The notes under the pieces were generated by a model, which worked only from the letters and a program-made list of their open reading frames with translations, made no database searches and was not told the origin of the DNA. A stretch of DNA of 64,000 bases from Phytophthora colocasiae. Lineage: Eukaryota; Oomycota; Peronosporomycetes; Peronosporales; Peronosporaceae. The stretch spans positions 62,001 through 126,000 of the forward strand of contig JAGKQI010000080.1 in the NCBI GenBank assembly GCA_018806915.1. Direction: 5' to 3'. Position 1 is the stretch's first letter. The number at the start of each line of letters is the position of its first letter. This document shows positions 3,439 to 50,851 of this stretch, one piece after another. The position numbers and the translations under genes were made by a program.

Positions 3439-3491
3439 TTAATTGGCAATCGGCTCTTAACCCTTTTGCGGTGCAGGGGTGCATCATGCGC
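3439..3491 (+). repeat. TTAA-bounded 14-bp block followed by a piggyBac-like left end
   Basis: TTAA at 3439-3442 and 3457-3460 bracket a 14-bp block that recurs exactly, in reverse orientation, at 58012-58033. From 3461 the sequence CCCTTTTGCGG begins, typical of piggyBac ends, followed by a subterminal CATCATGCGC at 3482-3491. The reverse complement GCGCATGATG occurs at 11846-11855. These could be the two sides of a composite element holding the DOT1 and transposase genes, but the right end is degraded. Confidence 0.4.
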
Positions 3492-4089
3492 TCTTTGGGT
3501 ATGTTTCTCATTTAGGTACGAAAACAGACTGCTTGAAGGGCGCATAAAGGCCCTTTTAGAAAAAAAAACGTACTTTAAAGAACTTCCAGAATTTCTACCA
3601 ATGACTGCACTTTGTTTTCTTACGGCTTCGGTATTTTATAAACTACGACCTTTTTTTTCGATGCGCAGCATAATCATCCTGTCTGACCGTCTCTCTGCCG
3701 TTCATTTGCCCGCCAATAGAAAGGTAGGATATTTGCATGGATTTATTATCAAACATATTGGACTAATGCGAACTACGTTCTCAGACGCAAAAGACAAGCT
3801 ACTAGTGCATATTGCTGCCCAATTCGAGGATGAAGGCCTGCGGGTTACATGGGCATATGTAGCCCGGCAGATGCATGGGACGCGGACGTCTAAGGAGCTC
3901 CGGCTTCGGATGGAAAGTCTCAAGCGCACCTACGGCAAGGTAGTAAGGGCCTTCCCGCGATGCTTCTTCGGAGAACAACACACGCGTCCGCGCTACCGTC
4001 GTGTAGCTCCTTCCCGGTCGTTACTTGCAGGTGGGCCAAGGGTTCATTCACGAGAGGTAGCTACAGCTGCCACCAGCCGTGGCATCGTT

Positions 4090-5375
4090 GCCGTCCAAGG
4101 TCAGTAAGAATGGTGTGATGCGGTGCTACGTGTACTTGACGTTGTTCGTGTATGTTCTATAGGTGACGAGCTACGAGAAGCAGTGGCAGAGCGTGGTACG
4201 GAAGGAGGTCGCCCAGGAGAAGATTACGCTGGCGTCATAGGCGCTGATGGTGCTGCCGCCGCTGCAGGTGTGCGATAACCTGACGCGTGTGTCAACAGAG
4301 CTGCTGGCTGCTGACCTTTGTCTGTTTGTGTATGTTGTAGGTGGCGAGTCTCACAGAGGCGTCGTGAGGCTTCATGGCGCTGCACGAGCAGTCAGCATTG
4401 CCGCTGTCGGCCAAGGCGAATAGACTGGCGGTAAGTGGGGAGAGTACGCCCGGTCGCTAATGTTGTATGTGTGTGACCGCAGGTGGTGAGCGTGGCGGTG
4501 CAGTACAGCAGCGTCGTGGTGCAGAACAAGACACCGGCGTAGCCGTTGATACCAACGTCCAAGGTGCGTGATGAATGTGTACTGGACGACGGTGCACTAA
4601 TTGCTGATGTTGTGTGCATACGTAAGGTGCAGGTGGTGAGCATCGAGAAGTAGGTGGACTACACCTCATCGATGCTGTGCAAGGTGTGTGAGGACTTTAT
4701 GGAGGTGGTGCTTCCGATGGCTGATGCTGTTATGTGTTTTGTAGGAGTTGGACATCGGGACGATGCTGGCACAGCGGACGCTGGTACTGTCGGTAGAGGT
4801 GAGAAAGAACTACGTGGACTGTGTGGATGCTGTGGTTGCTGACGTTATTTGCGTGCTGTGTATGTAGCTCACGAGCATCGTGTAGGAGTTGCTGTTATTG
4901 ACGCCGCTGTCCGAGGTGAGGGAAGACGTGTTCTGAGGTGGACGCAGGATGCTGACGTTCTGCTATGTGATATGCAGTTTCCAAGCGCCGTGGATCAGCA
5001 GCAGTAGATGCTGAGGGTGGTGTTACTGGCCCAGGTGAGCGGAAATTATATTATAGAGATGTTCTGTGTTGGTGACGTCGTTATGCCTGTTGTATAGTTA
5101 CAAAACGTCGCGTGCGCGTGAGTTCTGCTAGTGGTGTTCGTGCGTCGAGACGTGGGCGTGCAACTACTGAACGTCCGATTGGTGGACAATCTGCTCGTGG
5201 CAAAAGTGCACTTCGAAGTGCTAGTGATGGACGTGCTTCGGCCATCGGACGTGCTGCTGGTGATGACTTTGTTTCGAGTGGCGGGCAGGTTGGCAGCGAT
5301 GAACTTGCTCGTGGTGGGCGTGCGCTTCGAGGTGGCCGTCCAGCTGGTGATGGCCTTGCTTCGAGTGGGTTGGTG
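4090..5375 (+). repeat. left arm of a near-identical inverted repeat (1.3 kb)
   Basis: This stretch is repeated in reverse complement at 9744-11029; paired positions sum to 15119 with almost no indels. Introns are as conserved as exons, with only scattered differences (for example a donor GTGTGC here against GTATGC in the other arm). The similarity starts in the last ten or so bases of exon 1 and ends inside the repetitive exon 9, so both genes share the middle but not the ends. Confidence 0.9.
4163..5034 (+). other. array of seven phase-1 symmetric mini-exons (exons 2-8)
   Basis: Inferred exons are 4163-4267, 4341-4415, 4483-4563, 4633-4683, 4745-4798, 4868-4915 and 4978-5034 (105, 75, 81, 51, 54, 48 and 57 bases). 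Each is a multiple of three and each junction falls after the first base of a codon, usually Gly. Introns (63-73 bp) have GT donors, except the one after exon 3, and most acceptors read TATGTAG, TTGTAG or similar. Translations are Gly/Ala/Val/Arg-rich; several exons end in Val-Gln. The same array exists in mirror image at 10085-10956 within the piggyBac gene. Exon 3 either uses a GC donor at 4416 or runs to a strong GTAAGT at 4431 through a TAG. Confidence 0.7.
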
Positions 5376-6235
5376 GTGGACGTACTGGTCAAAGCCCTCA
5401 TGTATTAAATTCACCCAGTGATTCTGACGTACCCGGTAAGAATGCACATACCCTTGTATTACTGTCGGTTACTGCTGATTCAGTGTCATTGTACATCAAG
5501 CACCAGCTCCATTATCCCATGGTGACGCTGTGGTTGCCGTCGGGCTTATCTTTAGGGACATCACTCGCGGGGACGTGAGGCAAAAGCCTGGGAAGACCCA
5601 AGATAATGCCGGTGAAGTTCTTTCTTGGGGAGTTGTTCGCCTAATTCAGGCGATGAGTCCTGTTACCAATAGCGACATTTTTCTGGACGTCGGTGCAGGT
5701 GTTGGCAACGTCCTCGCTCAAGTAGCGATAGCGACATCGGCCCGGGCATGCGTTGGCATAGAGGTTCGTAGTGATCTTTGTCAACTTGCAGAGCGTTGCC
5801 TTCATCGGTTTGTTGGAAGATTTCCACACCTTGGCAAAGTGATGATCAAGGAAACAGACGTGCGGGATGTTTCATTTTCGAGCAACCCTGCTACACGTGA
5901 TGCTACATTAATTTTCGCGAACATTTTTTTTTATTTGAAGAAGACGCGAAACTGGTGGTGGCCCGAGAGCTCGCAACTTTATCAAAGGCTCGCTTACTGG
6001 CGGCGACATCTCGATTCTGCCCAAGACATCGAAAGTCGTGCACAGAGCCGTTTTGCCTACGCTGGAGTATAGCAGATGAAATCTCTGTGAGATGTAGCTG
6101 GAAGGCTGATCGCGTTCCTGTGTATCTGTACATCAGCAATACTAAGTAGTATCACAGTCCTGCCAACAATAACTACTCTCAACCACTTTCAATTTAGACA
6201 ATATTTTCACCAAACACATAGTAAAGTGAAGTGAA

Positions 6236-6530
6236 ATACATGTAAACACCTGCGCCAAAACTATAGTATACTCAAGTTACATGCAGGTAAACACATGCAC
6301 TAAAAGCATACTAAACTCAAGTTACATGCAGGTAAACACAAGCACTAAAAGCATACTAAACTCAAGTTACATGCAGGTTAACACATGCACTAAAAACATA
6401 CTAAACTCAAGTCACATACAGGTTAACACATGCACTAAAAGCATACTAAACTCTAGTTACATGCAGGTTAGCACATGCACTAAAAGCTTATTAAACTAAA
6501 GTTGAATGCAGGTAAACACCTGCACCAAAC
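6236..6530. repeat. 45-bp tandem repeat, about six copies, between convergent 3' ends
   Basis: Units begin near 6281, 6326, 6371, 6416, 6461 and 6506, each containing ATGCAGGTAAACACATGCAC and a CATACTAAACTC segment. The first and last copies are degenerate. The array is translatable as a 15-residue repeat (MQVNTCTKSILNSSY), but this simply follows from a unit divisible by three and no gene is supported. It separates the end of the DOT1 gene (6149) from the end of the transposase gene (6540). Confidence 0.9.
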
Positions 6531-9502
6531 AAACGTTACCTATATTTGAATTTGGCGTACTACAGGTGGTCTCGACTCGTGGTCGCCTGCTGCTGCTTTC
6601 AACACGGCAAGCTTGGAGTGTCGCCTGACATTCCCCTTGGCAGTAAACAAATTCTGCTGAAGATAGAACTGATGGAATTTTTCCCAGCATGTTGCAGTAG
6701 TGTTTGGGCACATCCACGGCTTGACAGGTACGTCGTGCAGTTCTTGGCACAAGCACACGTCATGGGAATAGCAGTAGGTCGTAACCTCGGTTGGGTATCT
6801 GCCCTCCCATCTGCATACTATGCAGCGTCGACGTTTCCTTTGCTTTTTGTCATAAATTTGCCTTGACGAAACCGACGTACACACCATCGTCGCACCTCTA
6901 ACACGGTCATCGCTTGGTCGTGCCGGCGGCATGTTCATAACTTCAATTTCGCCCCTTGTAGCACACGCACCAGTGTAAAGCATGCGCCCTTCACTTGGAG
7001 CATTTTTCCACTTTCTATTCAACAATTCCCCCACTAGCTCCATCATAAACGTTCGATGGGGGTCTCGGGTAGGCGGGGTGTCTGTTTTTACAAGACGTTG
7101 AGTGAGGTATGCGTTGGATCGCGCGACATCGATAAGTGCTAATGCCAGCTTTTTGTGCCAACGTCTGTAGGAGTGTCCGTCCGAAATCGAGAAGCGTCCT
7201 CTAATTTGATCAAGTCTATCAACCCCTTGCATATTGGCGTTGTAGTGCGCAACACACACTGGCGACGAAAATTCCTTTCGTTCTTTGCCAATCACTCGAG
7301 CCACACTGGTAATGACGGTCGAATCTGCATTGGAAATCATGTTTACTACATTGCCATCACACCAGGATGCCGCTAACATACTGTGATCCCGAGCCACAGC
7401 CTGTCGGTAGTCTCCACGAATGCAATCATCTTTGGGCAGTATTGAATGTGCAGGAAAATGTTTGCTATTCGCACGAATTGTACCTCTCCCATAGAGACCT
7501 TTAAGCCGCAGTTCCTGTAGCAGCTGCACTGATGTATAGTAGTTGTCCATGTTCACAATTCGGTTCGTCCCAAAGAGAGGTCGGGTCACTTCAAGCACAT
7601 GCTGCCGAATTTTCGATACAGCTTCGAACTCCTCCCTCAAACTCTGGGCTTCCTCCAGCCCAACAACACCGTCTAAACGGTCTTAAATGTCACTTCGATT
7701 ACAGTGAAGCTTGTAGTTCAGCGCTATCCACGTAGTAGAACAGCACACCATATAAAGTCGGAAGTGATACTTGCCCGTTGGCTTGGTGGGGTTGTACACG
7801 ATCATGTGTCGGCCTTGGCGAGTTCGGCACGCCACACTAGCCTCGTCCAAAGCAACATTGCGTCCGACATTAACGTACTGCCCCCCGGTGATCTTCAGTA
7901 GATTCAGAAGCGGCCTAATCCTTGCTGCAGCATCTTTCTCAAGAGTGGTTGGCGAAGAATTGAAGCTCAGGCAACGCCGAATGAGCTTGAATCGATACAG
8001 TGACATGATAGAATCTAGAGCGGTTGTAGATCCTCCAAACACTAAGTCTTCGGCTTGTTGACCCCAATAGTTTGCGTACTCCCCCTTATCATTCACGGCC
8101 ATGAAGAACAAAATTCCGAGGAAAGTCATCAACTCGTCCAGCGTGAACGGGTTGCCAATGCGGATTTCCTTCAAAGTTGCGTAGTGATTCGTCTCATGTA
8201 ATGTCTGGCGCCAGAAGAATAGTGGTATGTACGCGAAAAAGCTTGAGCAGGCAGAGTCCTCGAAAAGGTACTTGTACTCAGGGCGGATGTGGGTCTCGGT
8301 TGTACCGTCAGCATGCGCATACAGGTAGGAGGGAGATTCAACGTCTTCCCCGGGGACAAATCGCATGTTTCTAATCGCCTCCACCTCTGCTAGACTCGAG
8401 GGAAGAACGCTGCCAGGATCGAACGCTTCAATGGGGTCTTCCACTAGGTCGGAGGCTTCAGAGTCGATGTCAAGCTCCTCACCAGGATCAGGCTCCACGA
8501 GAACACGCCAGTTAGGAGTTTTCAACTGTGTAAGTGCAATGTAGTTCTTGATACCACGCTGTGCGACGCCAGCGTTGATGATCTCCAAGTTATTTTGAAA
8601 TTGACTATCCAGCCATCGGATTTGAAAGAGAGTAGCGTTCTTCCCCTTCTTCACAGAACGGTAAATGCGGCCGACAATGTAGGACGTACCAATCGGTCTG
8701 TATGCCTTAGCCTTCATCCACGTTTCCTTGTCAGGTGTGAACGCGACCAGTTTGTCAACGTAGACATCTTGGAGTAGGATAGGCATGGATCGTGGTGTTG
8801 TTTTGGCCTCATTGGGTGATCGAGATGTTGGGGTGTTCGCACGTGATGAAGCTGGAGCATGATTCATCGTGTCTGGACTACTAGCACCTCTGTTAATCGC
8901 ATGTACTCCGTCACTATCATCTCCATCAGCCACTGATATAATGTCGTTGTCACCAGTGTAACAGGTAGTGCCGATACTAATACTACCGTCACAAGATGCT
9001 CGAGCACCGAGACACCGTGAGGAATCAACTTCACCAAGCGTGATGATATTGCCAGCGCACGCGGCATCACCACCACTCGCAGAATCACCACCGCTCGCAG
9101 AACCACCACCGCTCGCAGAACCACCACCGCTTGAAACCCGCCCATCCATTACTGCCCCATCAGTATTAGATGTAGGTTGGTTGCTAGCAGCCAAGTCAAC
9201 ACGCCCAACACTAACATCCCGTCCATCATGAATCGGACGACCACCACTAGTAGTGTCACCTCTAGCTGTACTCCCACCTCTAGAAGTGCGTGCATCTCCA
9301 GTAGTACACCCACCTCTAGACACACACTCATCTCTAGCCGTACACCCGTGTTTAGCCGTACGTTGCTCGCCAGTACCACACGCACAACGAACATGATGTC
9401 CACCACTAGTGCCACCCAAACCACTCGAAGTAAGTCCATCACCGGTCGCACGACCACTGTCCAAAACATCACCACTAATGCCACCCAACCCACTCGAAGC
9501 AA

Positions 9503-9850
9503 GGTCATCACCAGCTGGACGGCCACCTCGACGTGTACGTCCACCACGAGCAAGTTCATCGCTGCCAACCTGCCCGCCACTCGAAGCAAGGCCATCATCA
9601 GCTGGACGGCAACCTCGACGTGCACGTCCACCACGAGCAAGTTCATCGCTACCAACCTGCCCGCCACTCGAAGCAAGGCCATCATCAGCTGGACGGCAAC
9701 CTCGACGTGCACGTCCACCACGAGCAAGTTCATCGCTGCCAACCTGCCCGCCACTCGAAGCAAGGCCATCACCAGCTGGACGGCCACCTCGAAGTGCACG
9801 TCCACCACGAGCAAGTTCATCGCTGCCAACCTGCCCGCCACTCGAAACAA
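9503..9850 (-). repeat. 87-bp tandem repeat, four units, in the transposase linker exon
   Basis: Units start at 9503, 9590, 9677 and 9764 on the + strand. On the coding strand each encodes 29 residues around GGQVGSDELARGG and a Cys- or Gly-containing RG segment. The corresponding part of the DOT1 gene (5268-5354) has a single unit, so copy number differs between the two arms. Arg-Gly-rich low-complexity segments of this kind are usually disordered and nucleic-acid associated, which is only a general expectation. Confidence 0.88.
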
Positions 9851-11029
9851 AGTCATCACCAGCAGCACGTCCGATGGCCGAAGCACGTCCATCACTAGCA
9901 CTTCGAAGTGCACGTTTGCCACGAGCAGATTGTCCACCAATCGGACGTTCAGTAGTTGCACGCCCACGTCTCGACGCACGAACACCACTAGCAGAACTCA
10001 CGCGCACGCGACGTTTTGTAACTATACAACAGGCATAACGACGTCACCAACACAGAACATCTCTATAATATAATTTCCGCTCACCTGGGCCAGTAACACC
10101 ACCCTCAGCATCTACTGCTGCTGATCCACGGCGCTTGGAAACTGCATATCACATAGCAGAACGTCAGCATCCTGCGTCCACCTCAGAACACGTCTTCCCT
10201 CACCTCGGACAGCGGCGTCAATAACAGCAACTCCTACACGATGCTCGTGAGCTACATACACAGCACGCAAATAACGTCAGCAACCACAGCATCCACACAG
10301 TCCACGTAGTTCTTTCTCACCTCTACCGACAGTACCAGCGTCCGCTGTGCCAGCATCGTCCCGATGTCCAACTCCTACAAAACACATAACAGCATCAGCC
10401 ATCGGAAGCACCACCTCCATAAAGTCCTCACACACCTTGCACAGCATCGATGAGGTGTAGTCCACCTACTTCTCGATGCTCACCACCTGCACCTTACGTA
10501 TGCACACAACATCAGCAATTAGTGCACCGTCGTCCAGTACACATTCATCACGCACCTTGGACGTTGGTATCAACGGCTACGCCGGTGTCTTGTTCTGCAC
10601 CACGACGCTGCTGTACTGCACCGCCACGCTCACCACCTGCGGTCACACACATACAACATTAGCGACCGGGCGTACTCTCCCCACTTACCGCCAGTCTATT
10701 CGCCTTGGCCGACAGCGGCAATGCTGACTGCTCGTGCAGCGCCATGAAGCCTCACGACGCCTCTGTGAGACTCGCCACCTACAACATACACAAACAGACA
10801 AAGGTCAGCAGCCAGCAGCTCTGTTGACACATGCGTCAGGTTATCGCATACCTTCAGCGGCGGCAGCACCATCAGCGCCTATGACGCCAGCGTGATCTTC
10901 TCCTGGGCGACCTCCTTCCGTACCACGCTCTGCCACTGCTTCTCGTAGCTCGTCACCTATAGAACATACACGAACAACGTCAAGTACACGTAGCACCGCA
11001 TCACACCATTCTTACTGACCTTGGACGGC
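9744..11029 (-). repeat. right arm of the 1.3-kb inverted repeat
   Basis: Reverse complement of 4090-5375, including the introns. It carries mini-exons 2-8 of the transposase gene and the start of its long exon. The shared TAG/GC-donor configuration of mini-exon 3 is present here too (around 10704), so that feature predates the duplication or was copied by conversion. Confidence 0.9.
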
Positions 11030-11343
11030 GGCAGTTGTTGTAGTAACGGCGTCAACTGGTGCTTCACGGTCATGGAGGTGTTGCATCAAGGCGTCTTCGC
11101 CGAGAAAGAAGTCGACCCCTTCCTCACCATTGCGACGCCCGTTGGGGACGACGTACTGGTATCTCGAGTCCAAGCTCCGGCCACTGTCCACCCATCTTTC
11201 AATAGCGCCGCCCACACATCACGAAACCGAACGCCCCATGCGGTGGACGTTTCGGTCGCAGTAAGCCGGCGTCGCTTGCTGACTTGCCCTGGTGGTGGAT
11301 CGCGTGCCTTCTTCTCTCCGGGTGTTTCTTCACTAAGCGTCAT

Positions 11344-12063
11344 GAATTCTCCAAAACGGAACGGGGAGGGAAATGACGGACGGTTGACACGCGTAGCTCA
11401 TCAGTATTACTTTTAACAGGTCGGATTTTGATAGTTCATTCGTTGTTTCGTAATTTATTTGCTATGTGTTATTGAAAAAATTAAATTTCAAGAAAAATTC
11501 ATTCTAGCATTTACAGGCATTTACTCCAGTTTGCTAGCTGTTTTTACAATAAGCTAATTGCGAACACGTAGATAATGATAAAGCCATACAGGACTGACAT
11601 TAGCAAGTGAAAAGTGTGTTTGTAGACGTAGTCGCTGCAAGCATGGCACCAGTGCTCATGCAAGACAACATCCAAGCATCATAGATGCCAAGCAGACGTT
11701 CAAAAAAGAGGCTCATGTTTGACGTAATTTTTGATTTGTTACCTGAAGCTGCCTCCCACCAACTTCTTTTTTATCCAATCAGAGTATCCTTCCAGATTTT
11801 TGTTTGGCTCCAGGATATCGGCCAATCAGATTGCCAACTCGAAAGGCGCATGATGTGCCCTTAGACGTTGATGGCGGCTGTATAAAAACGTCTCAGACGT
11901 CTTTTCGTTTAGACACTGTCTTTTGAGGCGTCAATACTGTCTTTTCGAGGTGTCTAAACTCTTTTTACGAGTGCCGTTCCAAAGGTATCCGTAAAAACAA
12001 ATCTTGATTTCATTATGCAATCCTTGGTCTATATAGTCCTCTATTAGGGCCATTGCTGCCAAA
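11344..12063. other. intergenic flank of the piggyBac gene and gypsy target region
   Basis: The 5' side of the transposase gene would lie in 11344-11480, which is AT-rich from 11417. GCGCATGATG at 11846-11855 mirrors the subterminal motif at 3482-3491. At 11885-11980 a motif around AGACGTCTTTTCG and GTCTTTTGAGGCGTC recurs imperfectly, resembling 31305-31380. No gene seen. Confidence 0.4.
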
Positions 12064-12067
12064 CGAC

Positions 12068-13964
12068 TGACACGTTGCTAATTACGATTTTTCGGGTGGA
12101 TATGGACGTTACGCTGTGATGTGATTGGACATATACTGGATTGTGGGAGAAAGGGAGATGTGGGACGAGGTTATGTCCCGTGTGACAATATGATGGGTCT
12201 GTGGAAGAAAACTGCTATATATATTAACCTTCACCTGTACTGCAAAGGGGCCCAAGAGATCAGAAGTGTTCCTCGGAAAAGTGCACAAACTCCGAGAGAC
12301 AACAACACTCAGTCTGATCACCGGACTTTCCCCGACGATGAGTGCCTAAAGGTTGGCAGAAAGTCTCTCAGAAGAACGTATCTCTGAGAGACCTCATCCC
12401 GTTGCCGTCCTGTGTGACGATGATGGTTCAAGGAATACAGTTATACCCGCAAGATACCAAGTATCGCGCACCGGACGTAGCGCACCCCGCGCATATCCCA
12501 ACTGGACTTCGTGCGTTGCAGCATACGTGCTCCGCACCCTGAAAACACTCATGGATTTCTGGTATCACGCATGGAAACTCTGATATCACACCATGAAGTC
12601 TGACGTACATGAGTCCGACGTACATGAAGTCCGACGTACATGAAGTCCGACGTACATGAGTCTGACGAACATGATTCTGGTGAACAAGTCTGATGTGTCC
12701 GGCTTATACAAGCAATATTCCAGACATTTACCAATTTCCGATGAACAGACTCCGACGTACAAGACTCCGATGAACAGACCCAAGTGTCACGACTCTGGTA
12801 TTTATGACTCTGATGTACATGATTCCGGAGTACATGGTTCCGATGAACATGTCTCCGACGCACATGATTCGAGACCCTGATGAACAGGATACCAGACTCT
12901 GACACTCTGAAGTCCACCCCATACTGAAGCCAAGTGTACCCAACACGTCCTCACGCAATCAAGTGAAACGCAACCCGCTCATCCCTGTAATGACATCATT
13001 AAGTGTCGACTCGACAAGATCGGCAGCATCGACCACCATAGTGAGCCCAAGTGAAAGTTCCTGAGTTATACTGAGACCAAGTTTATATGAGAATATGGAA
13101 GACAGAAGACAGAGAGATACGAGATAGATAACCAGAGTTCAATTTTCCCTGTTGTAACGAGTTCGATTTGCTTTGTTATAACGTGGTCGTCTGCCTGCTG
13201 CTTCCCGTGAGTACTAGGCCACGACAAAGCTTTGAGTCGTGTGATCTCTCACCTATCAAGCCCCTTTAGGTGGAGATCAGCGTAACGTAGAGACCTGAGA
13301 GGACCCACCTATTCCATTTACTAGTTGGGTCGTTTGTCTTGTCTCTAGCGGTAGCCCATTTCATATTGTACGTTTGGACAGGTTTTGGGAGCTAGACAGT
13401 CGCTCTCAAGACGCTCGGTAGACTGTTATATAACTGATAGTGTATTGGTTTATTTTCCCTCTATATATTAGAGGGTGGTGCGCGAAAGTTACGGGATTAC
13501 CAGACAGACCAGGTGTCTGGTGAACATTTCCCTAGTTGACCTGGAGAACTAGCCCACTGCTCAAGGGCCAGGAAGAATAAGAGCAGCTACATATTTGTAT
13601 ATCGGAACTCTATATTGCGGTTATCTCGGAAGTCTAGTGACAGGACTTCCCTTTGTATTAATTTCTCTTTTGACTTCAGAAATCCCTGGTGTACACAAGT
13701 GTTCACCGGAAAACGTTCGACTCTCAAGCGCTCCCGTGAGGACCAGAAGGACATCCGACGGTCTACGCAAGGAACCCTCACTCTCAGCAACACTCTCACG
13801 ACCCCGGCGAGGGTCTCATTACCAAGACAACGAACCTACGAGGACAGCACAAGGTAACACACGCCCACCTTGCTGTGCGACTCTGGTATCACTACCGGTA
13901 GTCACACTTCCAGGTTCACTGTACGCCCCTGCACCGCGGTAAAAGTTGCACCGACTTCGCGACA
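12068..13964 (+). repeat. gypsy 5' LTR
   Basis: Starts TGACACGTTG, ends CGCGACA; the partner is 27706-29614. A tandem array of about 17-bp units (AGTCCGACGTACATGA) lies at 12591-12680, followed by degenerate copies to about 12900. The pair is nearly identical except for a replaced block at about 13141-13212 and one repeat unit fewer here. Confidence 0.93.
12591..12900. repeat. short tandem GTACATGA-type repeats in the LTR
   Basis: Four close copies of a unit AGTC(C/T)GACGTACATGA occur at 12591-12660, then looser versions containing TCTGGTGAACA, TCCGATGAACA and TCTGATGTACATGA. The 3' LTR has five close copies. Related words occur inside gag, pol and the antisense ORF. Confidence 0.8.
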
Positions 13965-27705: not shown

Positions 27706-29614
27706 TGACACGTTGCTAATTACGATTTTTCGAGTGGATATGGACGTTACGCTGTGATGTGATTGGACATATACTGGATTGTGGGAGAAAGGGAGATGTG
27801 GGACGAGGTTATGTCCCGTTTGACAATATGATGGGTCTGTGGAAGAAAACTGCTATATATATTAACCTTCACCTGTACTGCAAAGGGGCCCAAGAGATCA
27901 GAAGTGTTCCTCGGAAAAGTGCACAAACTCCGAGAGATAACAACACTCAGTCTGATCACCGGACTTTCCCCGACGATGAGTGCCTAAAGGTTGGCAGAAA
28001 GTCTCTCAGAAGAACGTATCTCTGAGAGACCTCATCCCGTTGCCGTCCTGTGTGACGATGATGGTTCAAGGAATACAGTTATACCCGCAAGATACCAAGT
28101 ATCGCGCACCGGACGTAGCGCACCCCGCGCATATCCCGATTGGACTTCGTGCGTTGTAGCATACGTGCTCCGCACCCTGAAAAACTCATGGATTTCTGGT
28201 ATCACGCATGGAAACTCTGATATCACACCATGAAGTCTGACGTACATGAGTCTGACGTACATGAGTCCGACGTACATGAAGTCCGACGTACATGAAGTCC
28301 GACGTACATGAGTCTGACGAACATGATTCTGGTGAACAAGTCTGATGTGTCCGGCTTATACAAGCAATATTCCAGACATTTACCAGTTTCCGATGAACAG
28401 ACTCCGACGTACAAGACTCCGATGAACAGACCCAAGTGTCACGACTCTGGTATTTATGACTCTGATGTACATGATTCCGGAGTACATGGTTCCGATGAAC
28501 ATGTCTCCGACGCACATGATTCCAGACCCTGATGAACAGGATACCAGACTCTGACACTCTGAAGTCCACCCCATACTGAAGCCAAGTGTACCCAACACGT
28601 CCTCACGCAATCAAGTGAAACGCAACCCGCTCATCCCTGTAATGACATCATTAAGTGTCGACTCGACAAGATCTGCAGCATCGACTACCATAGTGAGCCC
28701 AAGTGAAGATTCTTGAGTTATACTGAGACCAAGTGTATATAAGAATATGGAAGATAGAAGACAGAGAGATACGAGATAGATAACCAGAGTTCAATTTGAT
28801 CGGTACCCCCGAGTTAAATTTGCGTTACAACCCCAAGGTCGATTCGTCGGTTCTTCGGAAGTGTAAGGCCACGACAAAGCTTTGAGTCGTGTGATCTCTC
28901 ACCTATCAAGCCCCTTTAGGTGGAGATCAGCGTAACGCAGAGACCTGAGAGGACCCACCTATTCCATTTACTAGTTGGGTCGTTTGTCTTGTCTCTAGCG
29001 GTAGCCCATTTCATATTGTACGTTTGGACAGGTTTTGGGAGCTAGACAGTCGCTCTCAAGACGCTCGGTAGACTGTTATATAACTGATAGTGTATTGGTT
29101 TATTTTCCCTCTATATATTAGAGGGTGGTGCGCGAAAGTTACGGGAATACCAGACAGACCAGGTGTCTGGTGAACATTTCCTAGTTGACCTGGAGAACTA
29201 GCCCACTGCTCAAGGGCCAGGAAAGAATAAGAGCAGCTACATATTTGTATATCGGAACTCTATATTGCGGTTATCTCGGAAGTCTAATTACTGGACTTCC
29301 CATTGTATTAATTTCTCTTTTGCCTTCAGAAATCTCTGGTGTACACAAGTGTTCACCGGAAAACGTTCGACTCTCAAGCGCTCCTGTGAGGACCAGAAGG
29401 ACATCCGACGGTCTACGCAAGGAACCCTCACTCTCACACAAACTCTCACGACCCCGGCGAGGGTCTCATTACCAAGACAACGAACCTACGAGGACAGCAC
29501 AAGGTAACACACGCCCACCTTGCTGTGCGACTCTGGTATCACTACCGGTAGTCACACTTCCAGGTTCACTGTACGCCCCTGCACCGCGGTAAAAGTTGCA
29601 CCGACTTCGCGACA
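27706..29614 (+). repeat. gypsy 3' LTR
   Basis: Partner of 12068-13964 with the same start and end; the CGAC target duplication follows at 29615-29618. It holds one more copy of the short tandem unit than the 5' LTR, and differs from it in one compact block (about 28797-28866). Confidence 0.93.
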
Positions 29615-43882: not shown

Positions 43883-44338
43883 ATGAAGGATGGAGACGAA
43901 TAGAGTAATGCATAGAATAAGTCTTGAGTATAGATGAAGAATGGGCTTGTGGAAAATGGTCAATTAACCCTTCTGCGAAGCAAGGGACTAAACTATAGTT
44001 TACAAAATTAAGTCAATGACTTGTAAAAGGGCACTTTAAGCGAAATCCCAAGATCATCCATGCCTCAAATCTCGCAAGATGCACGACGTCATTATTAATA
44101 CCAGTCACGCCGTGACGACATACTCGAGCCGGAATTTTGGCGTACTTAAGCGGACACGAAGGAGAGTTTCAACCAATGATGAGGCGCTGTACGTCGTTGA
44201 CGTGAAGGGACGTTACAACAGCCCGTGTCCATGGCGTCTCAACATTGGTTGAAAATCAAAGTCACACACACCTTCATGTCCGCTGAAAATTCTCCTCCCT
44301 ACTTCCTAACATTCCAGAATCTGCCAGCTCGAGGAAAG
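43883..44338 (+). other. spacer between CRN units 1 and 2
   Basis: It includes TTAA/CCCTTCTGCG at 43964-43977 and AAAAGGGCACTTTAA about 60 bp on, probably a small old piggyBac-type remnant duplicated with each unit. The unit-2 start is at 44112 and the TTTCAACCAAT inverted repeat at about 44167-44253. No gene. Confidence 0.45.
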
Positions 44339-45547: not shown

Positions 45548-48500
45548 TTACTGAGGAAGATGCTTCTTAGACAAACCGACCATCGCACATAAAGTCTCGA
45601 GTCTGTCGCTGGCCAGGGGCTTCGTCATGATGTCGGAAGGATTGACTTCGGTCTTGACCTTCCACAAATCCATGGTTCTCTTAGCCACTTGGTCTCTCAC
45701 GAAGTGCCAACGTAACTCGATGTGTCGCGTTCTGCGACTGTAAGTTGGGTTCGTCGCCATGACGAATGCCGCTTGGTTATCAATGCCCATGCGGAACTTA
45801 GTTTCCAACTCCGGAAACACCTCAATCAATACATTGCGAAGCCCTTGGCCGTCCATGCATGCCTCACATGCTGCAACGTACTCCGCCTCTGCGGTAGATT
45901 GAGCTACAATGCTCTGACGCCTAGATGCCCATGAAATGGCACCGCCCGCCATGCAATGCACAAAGCCCGTGATGCTCTTGCGTGTATCTGGGTCATTTCC
46001 CCAGTCAGAGTCACAATATCCATCCACAACCAGCTCTGGGTTCTGCTTTCCACTCTTCTCCCTGGAGTACACAATTCCTAGCGTTTTGGTCCCAATGAGG
46101 TACCGCAGTACTCTCTTGGCTGCACCGATATGCTGCTGTGTAGGATTCTGTACGTAGCGACTGAGCTGACCAACCACAAACGCGATATCCGGTCTCGTGC
46201 AGGTTGTCAAGTACATCAAAGATCCGACCAGCTCACGATATGGAAACGTCTTGCCATTTGCGGCCACCTGCTTCCGTTGATCTGTGTCGGTGTCTTTCAC
46301 CGTCAAACGCATGTTTGTCTCCATTGGTATTCTACTGGGATGAGCGTCAGTAAAGTTGAACCGCTCAATGACCTCCTCGCAGTACTTGGTCTGGTGTATC
46401 TTAATAGACTTTTCGTTCTGCTCCACCTGAACTCCCAAGTAAGTGTTGAGTAGGCCCTGGTCCTTGAGGCCGTAGTCCATGTCGAGTTTATCGAACATCT
46501 TCTTCTTGAACTCCTCGTTCTTGGTTGCACACAAGATGTCGTCAACATAGAGAAGAACAATGACGAACTCGCCGTCTTTATCGTAGAAGTACAGACATGG
46601 CTCAGTCTTGCACTGCTTGAACCCGTAGTTCACGAACCAGTTATTCACTTCCGAATTCCACTCTCTCCCGGACTGCCGTAGCCCGTATAGTGCTTTGTTG
46701 ATGATGTAAATCATCCCGCCATCCTCGCACGGATAGCCTTCGACCTCCTCCAGATACTGCTTAATGCCTAGCGCAGCACTGAGGTAGGCTGTGTTTACAT
46801 CTCCTTGGTAGATCACCAGGTTCAGAAGAATGCACACTGCAACAAACATTCTGAATGTCGCCATGCGAGCGACCGGCGAGAATGTGTCTGTGAAATCAAT
46901 TCCGAAACGCTGCTTATCACCTCGAGCCACGACTCGTGCTTTGAAGGTCACAATGTAGCCTAAGTGATCCGTCTTCACGTCGAAAACCCACATTGTCTTG
47001 ATGGCATGCTGTCCTGCCGGCATATCCGATCTTGGAATCTGCTTCAGCACATCCTTGGACTTCAGTGCAGCCATCTCCTTGTCCATAGCCTCTTTCCAGA
47101 AACTCGATTGTTTTGACCTCATTGCTTCTCTGTAGTTCGTGGGTATTTTGATGTCACTAGCCCGTAAACCACCCTTGCCGCGTCGATCCTCATGCAGCGC
47201 TTTGAACGCCGAACAAACCTCAAAATCTTCGAATGGTTTACGCTCAGCAATTTCTCGGAGTCCAGCTCGTCTTGCTGCTATCACTCGCTGTGCGTTCACC
47301 TTGGTACGCTTCCGGTCTTGTGTGCAGCGAACCTCTTCGTCCCTAGGGTGTACTTTTCCCACTAGCATCTGCTGAGGAAATCCAAGAACATCATCCCGGA
47401 CTGGGATCTGTATTGTTTGCCTTGGAGGATCATCTACTTCGTCACTCAGGTTGCTGTTCCACTCAGCTTCATGTTCATCACTCGGGTCAAACAAGAAATC
47501 GCATCCATTCTCGTCACTCTCCACATCTTCTGAGACTGAAACAAGGTCTGTAACGTGATTAGCAACATCTTCGTGTTCAAACTCAATGAATTCTCCGCCT
47601 GCAAAATCGTCATCACCGTCAAATTCACAATTATCGTGTTCACTCACTGCCGCATCGGCATCGTCATCGCTCTCGACTTGAGCATCGTCAAAATCAACGT
47701 CCTCGCTCTCGATGCTCACTTGAGCATCGTCAAAATCACCGTCATGTTCACGATGTTCATCCTCGTTCTCATGTCCCTCGGTGCTGGCATCGTCTTCGCC
47801 CTCCTGCGTTTGAACTAACGCAAGCTCGTAGTCCGGCATGGAACTATTCTCCAACATGTCTTGCCATACTTGTTGGTCTTCATCGGCCAGTTTGCTGCTT
47901 GGCGTGCTACTTGGTGCATCCTCGAATGTAGGTAGTACACTGTTCTGTACCATCTCATTCCACTGAGTCGCTCTCTCGGCATCCAGCTCTTCACTCTCAG
48001 CCACACTGACCATGTCCACGTTACTGTCTTCGCGAACTGAATCTGCATCACACTCCGCGTGTTGTGAAGATTCTTCACTGTCACTATCTCCATCGTCAAA
48101 GTAGCCATCTTCGACAAACTCTGTAAACGTTTGCAGCCATTTGTTCACTTTGGCCTTGAACGTACCGCCGTATCTGTCCTTATACTTAATTGACTCGTTC
48201 ACTTTCACGTCTGCAACGAAGCCTTTCTGATGCTCCGTAGGGAAATACACTTGACAACCCACAACATCTTCCTGGTAGCCGATAAGAAATCCCACCTTGC
48301 AGTTCACAGCCAACTTCGTACGCTTGGCGACCGGAGTGTGGCAATACACCAGTGAACCAAAAGTCCGGATATGATGAAGATCCGGTTTCGTTCCATACAC
48401 CATTTCATACGGCGTACGGCCAGCCCCCTTACAGAAAACTCTGTTCTTGATGTAGACTGCAGTTTGTAGGGCATGTGTCCAGAACGACCTCGGTAACCCC

Positions 48501-50605
48501 GAGTCGTGCATCATGGTCTTGACCATACTGATCAAAGTCTGGTGAGTCCGCTCTACCAGGTTCAACTGCGACGATGTGGGACCAACTTTGGTGTGAACAA
48601 TTCCCTTGTCTGCGTACCAACGCTCCATTGCATTGTTGCAAAACTCCTTGCCTTTGTCCGTTAGCACCTCCTTCACAGGTCCAATAACTTCGTCGTCTTT
48701 ATCGTGAGTCTCAGCACACCACTGGCGAGTCACAACTGTGTCCACCCGGCGTCCGTGTTGCCGTTCGGCCCACGCGATATACTGCTTCATGTATTCGTTC
48801 ACTTTCCCTTCTGTCTTAGACTTCAACAGGTATGTGGTCACGAAGCGAGAGAATCCGTCCATAATGACCAACACTGCACTGTACTGTGTCCCATTGTGTA
48901 GACCAGGAATCAATAAGTCAGCGAAGATCATGTCATTCACCTTCTCGATGTTGCGCTCGAGCTTCTTGCGAAACGACTTACGTCTCTGCTTGCCGAAATG
49001 ACAGTCAGCGCAATCCATTTTCTCACGTTTCTTTAGCATGATGCCCTTGGCCATCCCGCGATCAACCATCAGGCGTATGTACTCTGGACAAGTGTGTCCG
49101 AGGCGCGTGTGCCAGACGTCAAGATCCTCAACTCCATCAGTCACTGCAAAATTTGCCAGTACACGCTTCTTAACTGCTGCAGTCTTCTTGCTGTTGACTT
49201 TGACACCACCAATATTGTGCACTTCGACAGTCCATAAGCGATGGTCTTGTTTCGTTCGAATCACCTCTGTACCATCCTTTGACATGCCGAAAATCATTGC
49301 CTCCTGATCCCAAGACATCTTGAATCCCTGCTCCAATGCTTGTCCCGGCGAGAACAGGTTGCATCCAGCCGCAGGTACATATAGTACATCCTCCACGAAA
49401 ACGAAAACCATCTCTTCATCAATCATACTGGCTAGTAGAATCGTTCCAAATCCTTCTGCTTGGGCATCAACACCATCAGCAAACCCTGATATTGTCGGGT
49501 TCCAGTCACTGTCCTCCATGCTGTTCAACACAGTGAAATACTCCTTACTGGTCACAATGTGAGCGTTGGTCCCGCTATCGAAGTACCAACGGCTTGGATC
49601 GTAGTTCTTAGCGACGCGCTTCACTACTTCTCCCACCACCACGTCACGTTTGTGTGCGATGTTGACAACTTCATCTGCGTTTTGTGAGGTCACTTCTTCC
49701 ACAGACTTCTCACCAATGCGTGCCATCTTGGCCTGTCCATTCTTCTTGGCGCTGGATTTCTCCTCCAGCTCTGGGCAGTTGCTCTTATAGTGGCCTTTGA
49801 CACCACAATTAAAACACTCGATCTCAGTCTTCGGTGTCTTCTTCTTAGTTGAGTCACCAGAAGGTTTGTTGCTGCTGTCTTTCTGGTTTCCTGAAGAACT
49901 TACTTTCTTCTTGGAGCCTTGATTATTCCCAAATGCATTCTTCTCCCAGTCCTTGCTACGAGACTCAGCCGTGAGAATCAATTCTCGCAACAACTCAGGT
50001 GTGTATTTGCCCATATTGGAGCTAAATAGCACTTTTCTTCGGAGTTCGTTGTAGCAAATTTGCGTCGGGAGACTTCTTAGCAGCATATCCACCATCTGGA
50101 GGTCGCTCAGTGGCGAGCCGAGCTCGTCGAGTTCGTTCTTGATGCGAAACATGGTGTACAAGTGTGCACGCACGTCACCATTCGTGCGCAGATGAGTCCG
50201 GTGCAGCTCTCCTTGTAAGCGGTACACTTTCTGCGCCTTGGTGGCATCGTTGTTCTTTCCTTCGTAGATCTTGCACAGCTCAGCCCACATGTCGGTACCA
50301 TTCTTCTGGTCCATCAACTGCTGAGCGAGTGTGGTCTTCAGCGAGCCCATGATCAGCATCTGGATCTTGGCTTGCTTCTTGGTGTGCTCATCCTTCTCGT
50401 CTTGACTCCACTGGTCGTCTTCCTTGACCTTACCGGTCGCGATCTGCTCGAGCAAGTCTCTCTGGAACGCCACAGTCATGGCTTTCTTGTAGAAAGGCCA
50501 GTTCTCTCCGTCCCAATGCACTGGGTTGCCGGACGAGTTGATGTGGAACTTCTTGTCCTTGTTGCTTTTGCGTCTGTCGTCGTCTGAGTCGCTTGAGGAT
50601 GGCAT
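45548..50605 (-). CDS. copia Gag-Pol polyprotein, intact
   Basis: The frame is open from 50695, but the ATG at 50605 (MPSSSDSDDD) is the sensible start, giving 1,685 residues. In order: a copia-type Gag with a C-x2-C-x4-H-x4-C knuckle (CFNCGVKGHYKSNC); protease YFDSGTNAHIV, with DSGT instead of the usual DSGA; pre-integrase LDVWHTRLGH; integrase zinc finger ending CADCHFGKQ and core with DGFSRF and the Glu in NLVERTH; an acidic spacer; RT with LLYVDDIL; and RNase H with YCDSDWGNDPDTRKS and STAEAEYVA. All catalytic positions I can check are present. Gag-Pol sits in one frame, as is common in this superfamily. Confidence 0.95.
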   Translation of the reverse strand: MPSSSDSDDDRRKSNKDKKFHINSSGNPVHWDGENWPFYKKAMTVAFQRDLLEQIATGKVKEDDQWSQDEKDEHTKKQAKIQMLIMGSLKTTLAQQLMDQKNGTDMWAELCKIYEGKNNDATKAQKVYRLQGELHRTHLRTNGDVRAHLYTMFRIKNELDELGSPLSDLQMVDMLLRSLPTQICYNELRRKVLFSSNMGKYTPELLRELILTAESRSKDWEKNAFGNNQGSKKKVSSSGNQKDSSNKPSGDSTKKKTPKTEIECFNCGVKGHYKSNCPELEEKSSAKKNGQAKMARIGEKSVEEVTSQNADEVVNIAHKRDVVVGEVVKRVAKNYDPSRWYFDSGTNAHIVTSKEYFTVLNSMEDSDWNPTISGFADGVDAQAEGFGTILLASMIDEEMVFVFVEDVLYVPAAGCNLFSPGQALEQGFKMSWDQEAMIFGMSKDGTEVIRTKQDHRLWTVEVHNIGGVKVNSKKTAAVKKRVLANFAVTDGVEDLDVWHTRLGHTCPEYIRLMVDRGMAKGIMLKKREKMDCADCHFGKQRRKSFRKKLERNIEKVNDMIFADLLIPGLHNGTQYSAVLVIMDGFSRFVTTYLLKSKTEGKVNEYMKQYIAWAERQHGRRVDTVVTRQWCAETHDKDDEVIGPVKEVLTDKGKEFCNNAMERWYADKGIVHTKVGPTSSQLNLVERTHQTLISMVKTMMHDSGLPRSFWTHALQTAVYIKNRVFCKGAGRTPYEMVYGTKPDLHHIRTFGSLVYCHTPVAKRTKLAVNCKVGFLIGYQEDVVGCQVYFPTEHQKGFVADVKVNESIKYKDRYGGTFKAKVNKWLQTFTEFVEDGYFDDGDSDSEESSQHAECDADSVREDSNVDMVSVAESEELDAERATQWNEMVQNSVLPTFEDAPSSTPSSKLADEDQQVWQDMLENSSMPDYELALVQTQEGEDDASTEGHENEDEHREHDGDFDDAQVSIESEDVDFDDAQVESDDDADAAVSEHDNCEFDGDDDFAGGEFIEFEHEDVANHVTDLVSVSEDVESDENGCDFLFDPSDEHEAEWNSNLSDEVDDPPRQTIQIPVRDDVLGFPQQMLVGKVHPRDEEVRCTQDRKRTKVNAQRVIAARRAGLREIAERKPFEDFEVCSAFKALHEDRRGKGGLRASDIKIPTNYREAMRSKQSSFWKEAMDKEMAALKSKDVLKQIPRSDMPAGQHAIKTMWVFDVKTDHLGYIVTFKARVVARGDKQRFGIDFTDTFSPVARMATFRMFVAVCILLNLVIYQGDVNTAYLSAALGIKQYLEEVEGYPCEDGGMIYIINKALYGLRQSGREWNSEVNNWFVNYGFKQCKTEPCLYFYDKDGEFVIVLLYVDDILCATKNEEFKKKMFDKLDMDYGLKDQGLLNTYLGVQVEQNEKSIKIHQTKYCEEVIERFNFTDAHPSRIPMETNMRLTVKDTDTDQRKQVAANGKTFPYRELVGSLMYLTTCTRPDIAFVVGQLSRYVQNPTQQHIGAAKRVLRYLIGTKTLGIVYSREKSGKQNPELVVDGYCDSDWGNDPDTRKSITGFVHCMAGGAISWASRRQSIVAQSTAEAEYVAACEACMDGQGLRNVLIEVFPELETKFRMGIDNQAAFVMATNPTYSRRTRHIELRWHFVRDQVAKRTMDLWKVKTEVNPSDIMTKPLASDRLETLCAMVGLSKKHLPQ

Positions 50606-50654
50606 CTTGTTGTGGTAGTGTTGTTTACCGATGTGTAGCGTAGGTCGTAGCTTG

Positions 50655-50672
50655 GGTTTGGGCTCGTAACCC
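50655..50672 (-). other. primer-binding site resembling an initiator-tRNA anticodon arm
   Basis: Directly inside the right LTR the + strand reads TTTGGGCTCGTAACCC. This matches TGGGCTCATAACCC, the anticodon arm of many eukaryotic initiator tRNA-Met genes, except for one base. Drosophila copia uses an internal fragment of this tRNA as primer, so a half-tRNA primer is suggested. Confidence 0.5.
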
Positions 50673-50851
50673 TGTCGGAGTTGAATCAAATGCACTCACA
50701 CACAACTTGTTTGGTTAAAGGAAACTTTCGGACTGAAGGCAGGTCCGCCGAGTGCGGAATCGATGCCTTTCTACCATCACTCTGCTAGCTAAGTTTCATA
50801 AGACGTCTTCAACTTCTCAGATCGTCTCAAAAGACGGTACGGTTTCCAACA
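50673..50851 (-). repeat. copia LTR (5' side)
   Basis: 179 bp, partner of 45347-45525; target duplication ATGAC follows at 50852-50856. Confidence 0.95.

Follow-up and report, generated by a model that had tools for sequence, protein, structure and literature searches.

What is a gene for a DOT1-type histone methyltransferase doing tail to tail with a piggyBac-type transposase gene, and why do the two genes share a stretch of nearly identical sequence? The question is raised by a 64,000-nucleotide (nt) stretch of the Phytophthora colocasiae genome (assembly GCA_018806915.1, contig JAGKQI010000080.1, positions 62,001 to 126,000; C78:62001-126000 in our numbering; hereafter the window), which we examined together with the whole genome sequence of 92.5 Mb in 105 contigs; the genome match counts given throughout are lower bounds. 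A preliminary description of the window had claimed convergent DOT1 (plus strand) and piggyBac (minus strand) genes joined by a near-identical inverted linker, and this arrangement was borne out: the linker is an inverted repeat whose arms of 1279 nt differ by 7 mismatches with no gap (99% identity), and the two genes match the Pfam families PF08123 and PF13843, respectively. From sequence comparison we read the locus as a copy of a piggyBac-superfamily transposon that carries a captured DOT1 gene as cargo, the enzyme being predicted to aid the element against silencing and the linker having been homogenized, a reading to which we give a probability of roughly 0.6.

The DOT1 domain was identified by a Pfam search that matched PF08123 at window positions 5482-6072 (3.2e-13, 50.1 bits against a cut-off of 23). 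Upstream of that domain the window gene runs from exon 1 through seven mini-exons of 105, 75, 81, 51, 54, 48 and 57 nt, all of them multiples of three, in phase 1 and open, into an exon rich in arginine and glycine (RG-rich) with 87-nt repeats, so the view of the linker as seven mini-exons, their introns and the start of an RG-rich exon stands. A GC donor marks one of the window introns. Sister copies L061 and L062 have GT-AG boundaries at all nine introns, and their spliced DOT1 gene is open for 628 amino acids (aa) that comprise, in order, a SANT-like domain, a G/A/R-rich linker of ~300 residues and the DOT1 domain. The earlier label of SANT for the N-terminal exon is a fair one but weak, as the Myb/SANT matches found there are sub-threshold only (PF13837, expectation value 0.015). 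We aligned seven DOT1 copies (two 93% alike, the others 29-43% identical to the first), and the D.G.GN motif and an acidic E, which we take to be the S-adenosylmethionine (SAM)-binding motif and the acidic residue of motif II, are invariant in all seven and likewise present in the window copy; also conserved in the seven copies are an Asn and, close to the C terminus, a C.RHR..C....FC motif. A profile of these seven copies finds solved structures of methyltransferases specific for lysine 79 of histone H3 (H3K79) from 2.7e-16, with DOT1L (1nw3) at 3.6e-16. The likely host-type DOT1 of this genome is L001, a 522-aa frame to which the transposon copies are 27-32% identical, the Cys/His motif partly included. 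Among 104 pattern stretches in viral contigs, the DOT1 alignment gave two loci (L079 and L080, 29-31% identity), at which no transposase-like open reading frame (ORF) was seen by eye among the listed ORFs of at least 150 aa, no domain search having been run there.

The second gene is a transposase of the piggyBac type. Both minus-strand window ORFs match PF13843 (DDE_Tnp_1_7), at 6540-7682 (5.1e-23) and 7683-10043 (3.3e-21), and taken together they contain the motifs DEA, [TM]DN[YF][YF]T and M.GVD, presumably the catalytic aspartate triad, as do several other copies; the second pattern is unmatched as typed in some copies, such as L037. The gene begins with a first exon of its own and then enters the linker that it has in common with the DOT1 gene. 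One transposase ORF of L062 is open for 1020 aa, beginning inside the RG-rich part, and in L065, a member of the other family described below, the transposase is open for 1090 aa.

The DOT1 and transposase genes lie within common termini and have moved as one unit. Sister copies match the window from 3457 to 11877 and then continue to a right end, ...CTTCGCAGAAGGGTTAA, which was read in L061, L062 and L063 (the L064 stretch stops short of it); their termini are 14 nt long, TTAACCCTTCTGCG. L061 is bounded by a TTAA at 610 and another at 9163, 8,554 bases apart, and its termini agree over the TTAA plus ten bases. When its two flanks are joined, the resulting sequence is found uninterrupted, with a single TTAA and one mismatch, at C55:1576279-1576314, a paralogous empty site. 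From these copies the full-length element of the window's family is estimated at about 8.5 kb. L061 and L062 have common flanks and are segmental duplicates, so that the two count as a single insertion. The left-terminus pattern has 20 genome matches at two or fewer mismatches and its reversed control has 0; 16 of the 20 are at loci with linker arms, and the other four are on C81, one of them near a 75-nt arm fragment. The terminal inverted repeats and TTAA sites that the preliminary description had proposed to look for around the gene pair are thus present in the sister copies, the window copy having lost its right end. Beside one element of the window's family, at L063 9237-9899 (C57:759702), lies the start of yet another SANT-like DOT1 gene.

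How general is the association? PF08123 has 135 matches in the genome, and some few of these may be fragments of a single gene. With the piggyBac profile list (116 of 1055 candidates scored, 150 of 154 matches listed), a piggyBac match lies within 8 kb of 52 of these 135, in convergent (30), tandem (19) or divergent (3) arrangement, where a simple density estimate gives a chance expectation of ~3.5; adding a search with the transposase protein (48 of 895 candidates scored) brings the number to 55. Seen from the other gene, a DOT1 match lies within 8 kb at 39 of the 48 scored transposase loci of the window's clade, and at 16 of 73 other piggyBac places in the profile list. A second family, with termini TTAACCCTATCGTTACC, has nine exact terminus matches, six of which form three pairs (three are unpaired); the pairs are 11.12-11.17 kb apart, at C3, C58 and C20, and each encloses a DOT1 match. 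The idea that a host DOT1 gene merely happens to sit next to a transposon could appeal to the one likely host-type gene, L001, and we reject it as scarcely credible in view of the empty site, the common termini, the many copies and the two bounded families. The same four observations, with the TTAA sites, sustain the proposal of the preliminary description that a transposon here carries a chromatin-modifying gene; in this genome copies of the two genes do occur together, and DOT1 is not confined to a single-copy host locus lacking mobile ends.

Four related loci lack the linker repeat. L065, the C3 element, consists of two single-ORF genes, a SANT-like DOT1 gene and a transposase, without the linker repeat; L066, a tandem arrangement, has a single-ORF DOT1 gene and likewise no repeat; and at convergent loci on C100 and C83 a SANT-like DOT1 gene is present and no inverted repeat was found in the 5.7 kb examined. 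In this genome the linker repeat was seen in the window's family only. With DOT1 genes that lack the repeat at these four loci, the DOT1 cargo is wider in distribution than the linker and, by parsimony, older, its capture being most simply placed before the linker fusion. The notion that the linker was a requirement for DOT1 capture was considered and dropped on the same four loci, in the stretches examined. On C20 (560493-571611) a window-family element starts at 571608, at the same TTAA that closes an 11.1-kb DOT1 element, and to judge by this junction one element is inserted at the other's border.

The linker itself is a record of concerted change. Arm matches occur at 21 loci in the genome, window included (40 of 43 candidates scored). 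Pairs of inward-pointing arms are present at 17 of them, in most cases lacking positions 109-402 of the query; two have one arm and a 259-nt remnant of the other, and two have one fragment. With this recurrence the repeat is not a product of chance. For the comparison we took 22 arms, which represent 11 of the 17 double-armed loci: ten come from the window and L061-L064, and 12 from further loci. Inside one element the arms are 99.3-100% alike in 10 of the 11 elements (97.6% in the one on C21), and arms of two subfamilies, A and B, differ from each other by 7-9%. The six A arms stand together on one side of the tree with full support, and an approximately unbiased (AU) test rejected monophyly of the nine known DOT1-side arms (log-likelihood difference 318, p-AU 1.9e-5). 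The six A arms have 36 variable sites, ten of which set both window arms apart from both arms of L061 and of L062, and three of which set both L061 arms apart from both L062 arms; five are peculiar to the DOT1-side arm of the window. Because the arms group by subfamily and not by gene, the linkers have been homogenized, which is most simply read as gene conversion from arm to arm; that the linkers have been kept alike, most simply by conversion, had been one suggestion of the earlier work, and the arm identities, the shared site patterns and the AU test all agree with it. Such conversion probably arises passively from the long inverted repeat, with the presence of the same linker in both proteins as a side effect. 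The mini-exon and intron units at 4163-5097 resemble diverged tandem copies of one exon-intron unit, in an alignment that is loose.

Two other accounts of the repeat were weighed. Fresh copying of the linker in each subfamily, or in part the genome assembly, could have made the linkers alike instead of conversion; fresh copying would likewise group the arms by subfamily, and it suits subfamily B, where arms are equally alike within and between elements. We nonetheless think it improbable, since the repeat has its 5' end at the identical base in both subfamilies (window 4090; L064 931; L063 reversed 1810), one layout holds across the 17 double-armed loci, and the paired differences described above postdate the split of the window copy from L061 (10 sites) and separate even the duplicates L061 and L062 (3 sites). 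The arms could alternatively serve as a recombination switch that flips the middle of the element and swaps the N-terminal exons of DOT1 and transposase, as their geometry permits. All 14 loci with a left-terminus match and a DOT1 match proved to have a single orientation of the segment that the arms enclose, in which the SANT-side terminus adjoins DOT1, and no inverted isomer was seen (C21 and C79, with no DOT1 match, and C69, with no terminus match, are outside this count); a switch is therefore very improbable, and we reject it.

Selection on the genes was estimated from pairwise ratios of nonsynonymous to synonymous substitution rates (dN/dS, Nei-Gojobori method). In the comparison of subfamilies A and B of the window's family, dN/dS is 0.18 (DOT1), 0.43 (SANT exon), 0.34 (transposase N-terminal exon) and 0.12 (transposase C-terminal half), and among the DOT1 copies L017, L022, L025 and L029 it ranges from 0.10 to 0.24. 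The low DOT1 values, obtained where the frames are undamaged, indicate that DOT1 was under purifying selection while the families diverged. Many present-day DOT1 copies are decaying.

Several results weigh against the reading of a useful DOT1 cargo joined to a homogenized linker. Among the piggyBac candidates scored (116 of 1055 and 48 of 895; 150 of 154 profile matches listed), none lies within 8 kb of 80 of the 135 DOT1 matches, and 9 of the 48 clade transposases have no nearby DOT1 match. Neither L061 nor L062 has a fully open transposase gene, the spliced readings ending at 375 aa (L062) and 988 aa (L061). The median dN/dS is 0.54 over the 35 of 465 pairs that are in range, damaged copies included, a value raised in part because L009, L011, L013 and L021 have shifted end frames; L061 against L062 gives 0.67, on three changes. 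In subfamily B, arms taken from different elements resemble each other as closely as those of one element do, so that the signal of homogenization comes from the comparison of A with B and from within A, and three sites unite the transposase-side arms of L061 and L062; on both grounds the homogenization, as read from the arms, is not complete. Finally, a finely tuned linker is not what the A and B sequences suggest: they differ by 6.8% in linker exons and 7.4% in introns, with 9, 11 and 17 differences at the three codon positions. As exons and introns diverge equally, the exact protein sequence of the linker seems little constrained.

What, then, might the enzyme do? Dot1 and H3K79 methylation accompany active or open chromatin and oppose silencing, so the most likely role of the cargo is to sustain expression of the element; the available part of one account also terms H3K79 methylation a feature of open chromatin (PMC7464606). 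In the reading that we prefer, the element-encoded DOT1 would methylate H3K79 or an equivalent site on or near the copies of the element, and this would keep the copies out of silent chromatin, so that the transposase gene could be expressed and its product could act. The Myb/SANT-like domain and the RG-rich linker would aid both proteins in binding the same chromatin; the linker may bind nucleic acid or chromatin, with the caution that its low constraint calls for. A bolder form of the proposal is that an oomycete piggyBac clade depends on its own DOT1 as a counter-silencing partner and that, in one family, a shared linker held alike by conversion sends both proteins to the same nucleosomes; this is possible, and we offer it only tentatively.

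The enzyme might instead be part of transposition, modifying the transposase or the target nucleosomes, with the common linker uniting the two proteins. The identical, homogenized linker in both genes and the (sub-threshold) SANT-like domain fit such a role, which we consider unlikely given that SANT-like DOT1 genes occur without the linker repeat at L065, L066, C100 and C83 and that linker exons diverge as introns do. A DOT1 cargo that works for the host or holds the element in check, through repressive or neutral chromatin that limits transposition, would also accord with DOT1 genes beside many transposases and with purifying selection in the clean comparisons, which fit any useful role, damping included; the ties of Dot1 and H3K79 methylation to active chromatin and their opposition to silencing, given above, make this reading rather improbable.

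The window element is, judged by its frames and ends, a decayed copy (Table 1). Its frames are broken in the transposase N-terminal exon, in the RG-rich exon of the DOT1 gene and in the DOT1 exon, a stop separates the two transposase ORFs, and the right terminus is gone; the small frame breaks may be either mutations or assembly errors. Beside the decayed right end, a 97% direct repeat (12068-13000 and 27706-28652) flanks Ty3-like ORFs (14648 onward) and probably represents the long terminal repeats of a retrotransposon (the query stopped at 13000, and the repeat could extend further). A Ty3-type insertion at 11877 was considered as the cause of the lost right end; the matching direct repeat starts ~190 bases from that point, which makes a deletion or other event the more likely cause.

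Table 1. Features of the DOT1-piggyBac element in the window (window coordinates).
Feature	Position	Strand	Remark
Left terminus: TTAA target site and terminal inverted repeat	3457..3470	+	TTAACCCTTTTGCG in window copy, TTAACCCTTCTGCG in sister copies
DOT1 gene exon 1, Myb/SANT-like N-terminal domain	3766..4099	+	sub-threshold PF13837
Inverted repeat, DOT1-side arm	4090..5368	+	end of exon 1, introns 1-8, mini-exons 2-8, start of RG-rich exon 9
DOT1 gene exon 9, RG-rich, 87-nt repeat units, frame broken	5098..5435	+	end placed from sequence and L061/L062
DOT1 gene exon 10, DOT1 methyltransferase domain, frame broken	5501..6149	+	
45-nt tandem repeats between the 3' ends of the DOT1 and transposase genes	6163..6529	+	
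piggyBac-type transposase, C-terminal half	6540..7682	-	
Transposase DDE domain, first half, and upstream coding region	7683..9402	-	in-frame stop at the 7683 boundary
Transposase gene, RG-rich 87-nt repeats	9403..9924	-	
Inverted repeat, transposase-side arm	9751..11029	-	same mini-exon linker
Transposase gene, N-terminal exon, frame broken	11030..11343	-	
Transposase gene, 5' flank	11344..11877	.	11877 is the final base common with sister copies; right terminus (...CTTCGCAGAAGGGTTAA) missing

Pieces of the same transposon family recur farther along the window. The right-end terminus with ~130 nt of subterminal sequence is found at 43964, 52454 and 55427 (plus strand), each ~240 nt upstream of one of three tandem paralogous ORFs (44201, 52691 and 55669) in a duplicated block; we take these ORFs to be Crinkler-like. 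A long polyprotein ORF on the minus strand (45548-50695), presumably Copia-like, lies directly after the first of them (44201) and apparently interrupts that gene.

The element resembles other members of the piggyBac superfamily in its DDE_Tnp_1_7 domain, in the three motifs that we take to hold the catalytic aspartates, in its TTAA target site and in termini that start with CCC; it differs from them in having a second gene, for a histone methyltransferase, and in a transposase with a long N-terminal region and, in the window's family, a mini-exon RG-rich linker. With the DOT1/DOT1L H3K79 methyltransferases (PF08123) its enzyme shares the catalytic domain with the SAM motif and the profile matches to solved H3K79-specific enzymes, whereas the present copies are mobile, numerous and equipped with a Myb/SANT-like N-terminal exon and with the C-terminal C.RHR..C....FC motif, which is partly common to L001.

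Histone methyltransferases on oomycete transposons are already known as a kind: in Phytophthora, HarbingerS and MuDR transposons carry SET methyltransferase genes (Kojima and Jurka 2014, as cited in the available text of PMC12730594). Those are likewise oomycete DNA transposons with a captured histone methyltransferase, but the enzyme is SET and not DOT1, the transposons are Harbinger and Mutator and not piggyBac, and a shared linker goes unmentioned in that text. The fungal transposons with TET/JBP dioxygenases described in the same text are alike in bearing an enzyme that acts on a silencing mark, with a proposed counter-silencing role, and differ in that the target is DNA methylation; piggyBac is named 0 times there. 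The 2014 work cited in that text could itself hold DOT1-carrying piggyBac elements. Among the literature matches listed, titles and the starts of abstracts yielded no DOT1-carrying piggyBac, and as far as those matches reach, what is new here is DOT1 on a piggyBac element, its breadth across families and the shared, converted linker.

The annotation of P. infestans, in the available part of PMC4030286, lists one DOT1 gene, PITG_00145, and repeats that hold further DOT1 copies may explain why it is the single one annotated. The inverted linker is a clear natural example of concerted evolution in the part that two different genes have in common. If our reading is true, an H3K79-type enzyme borne by piggyBac copies in their dozens would give an element a new means of acting on host chromatin; it opens the direct question of whether an element-borne histone mark is a shield against silencing, and it suggests that a mobile element may bring its own tool for altering chromatin.

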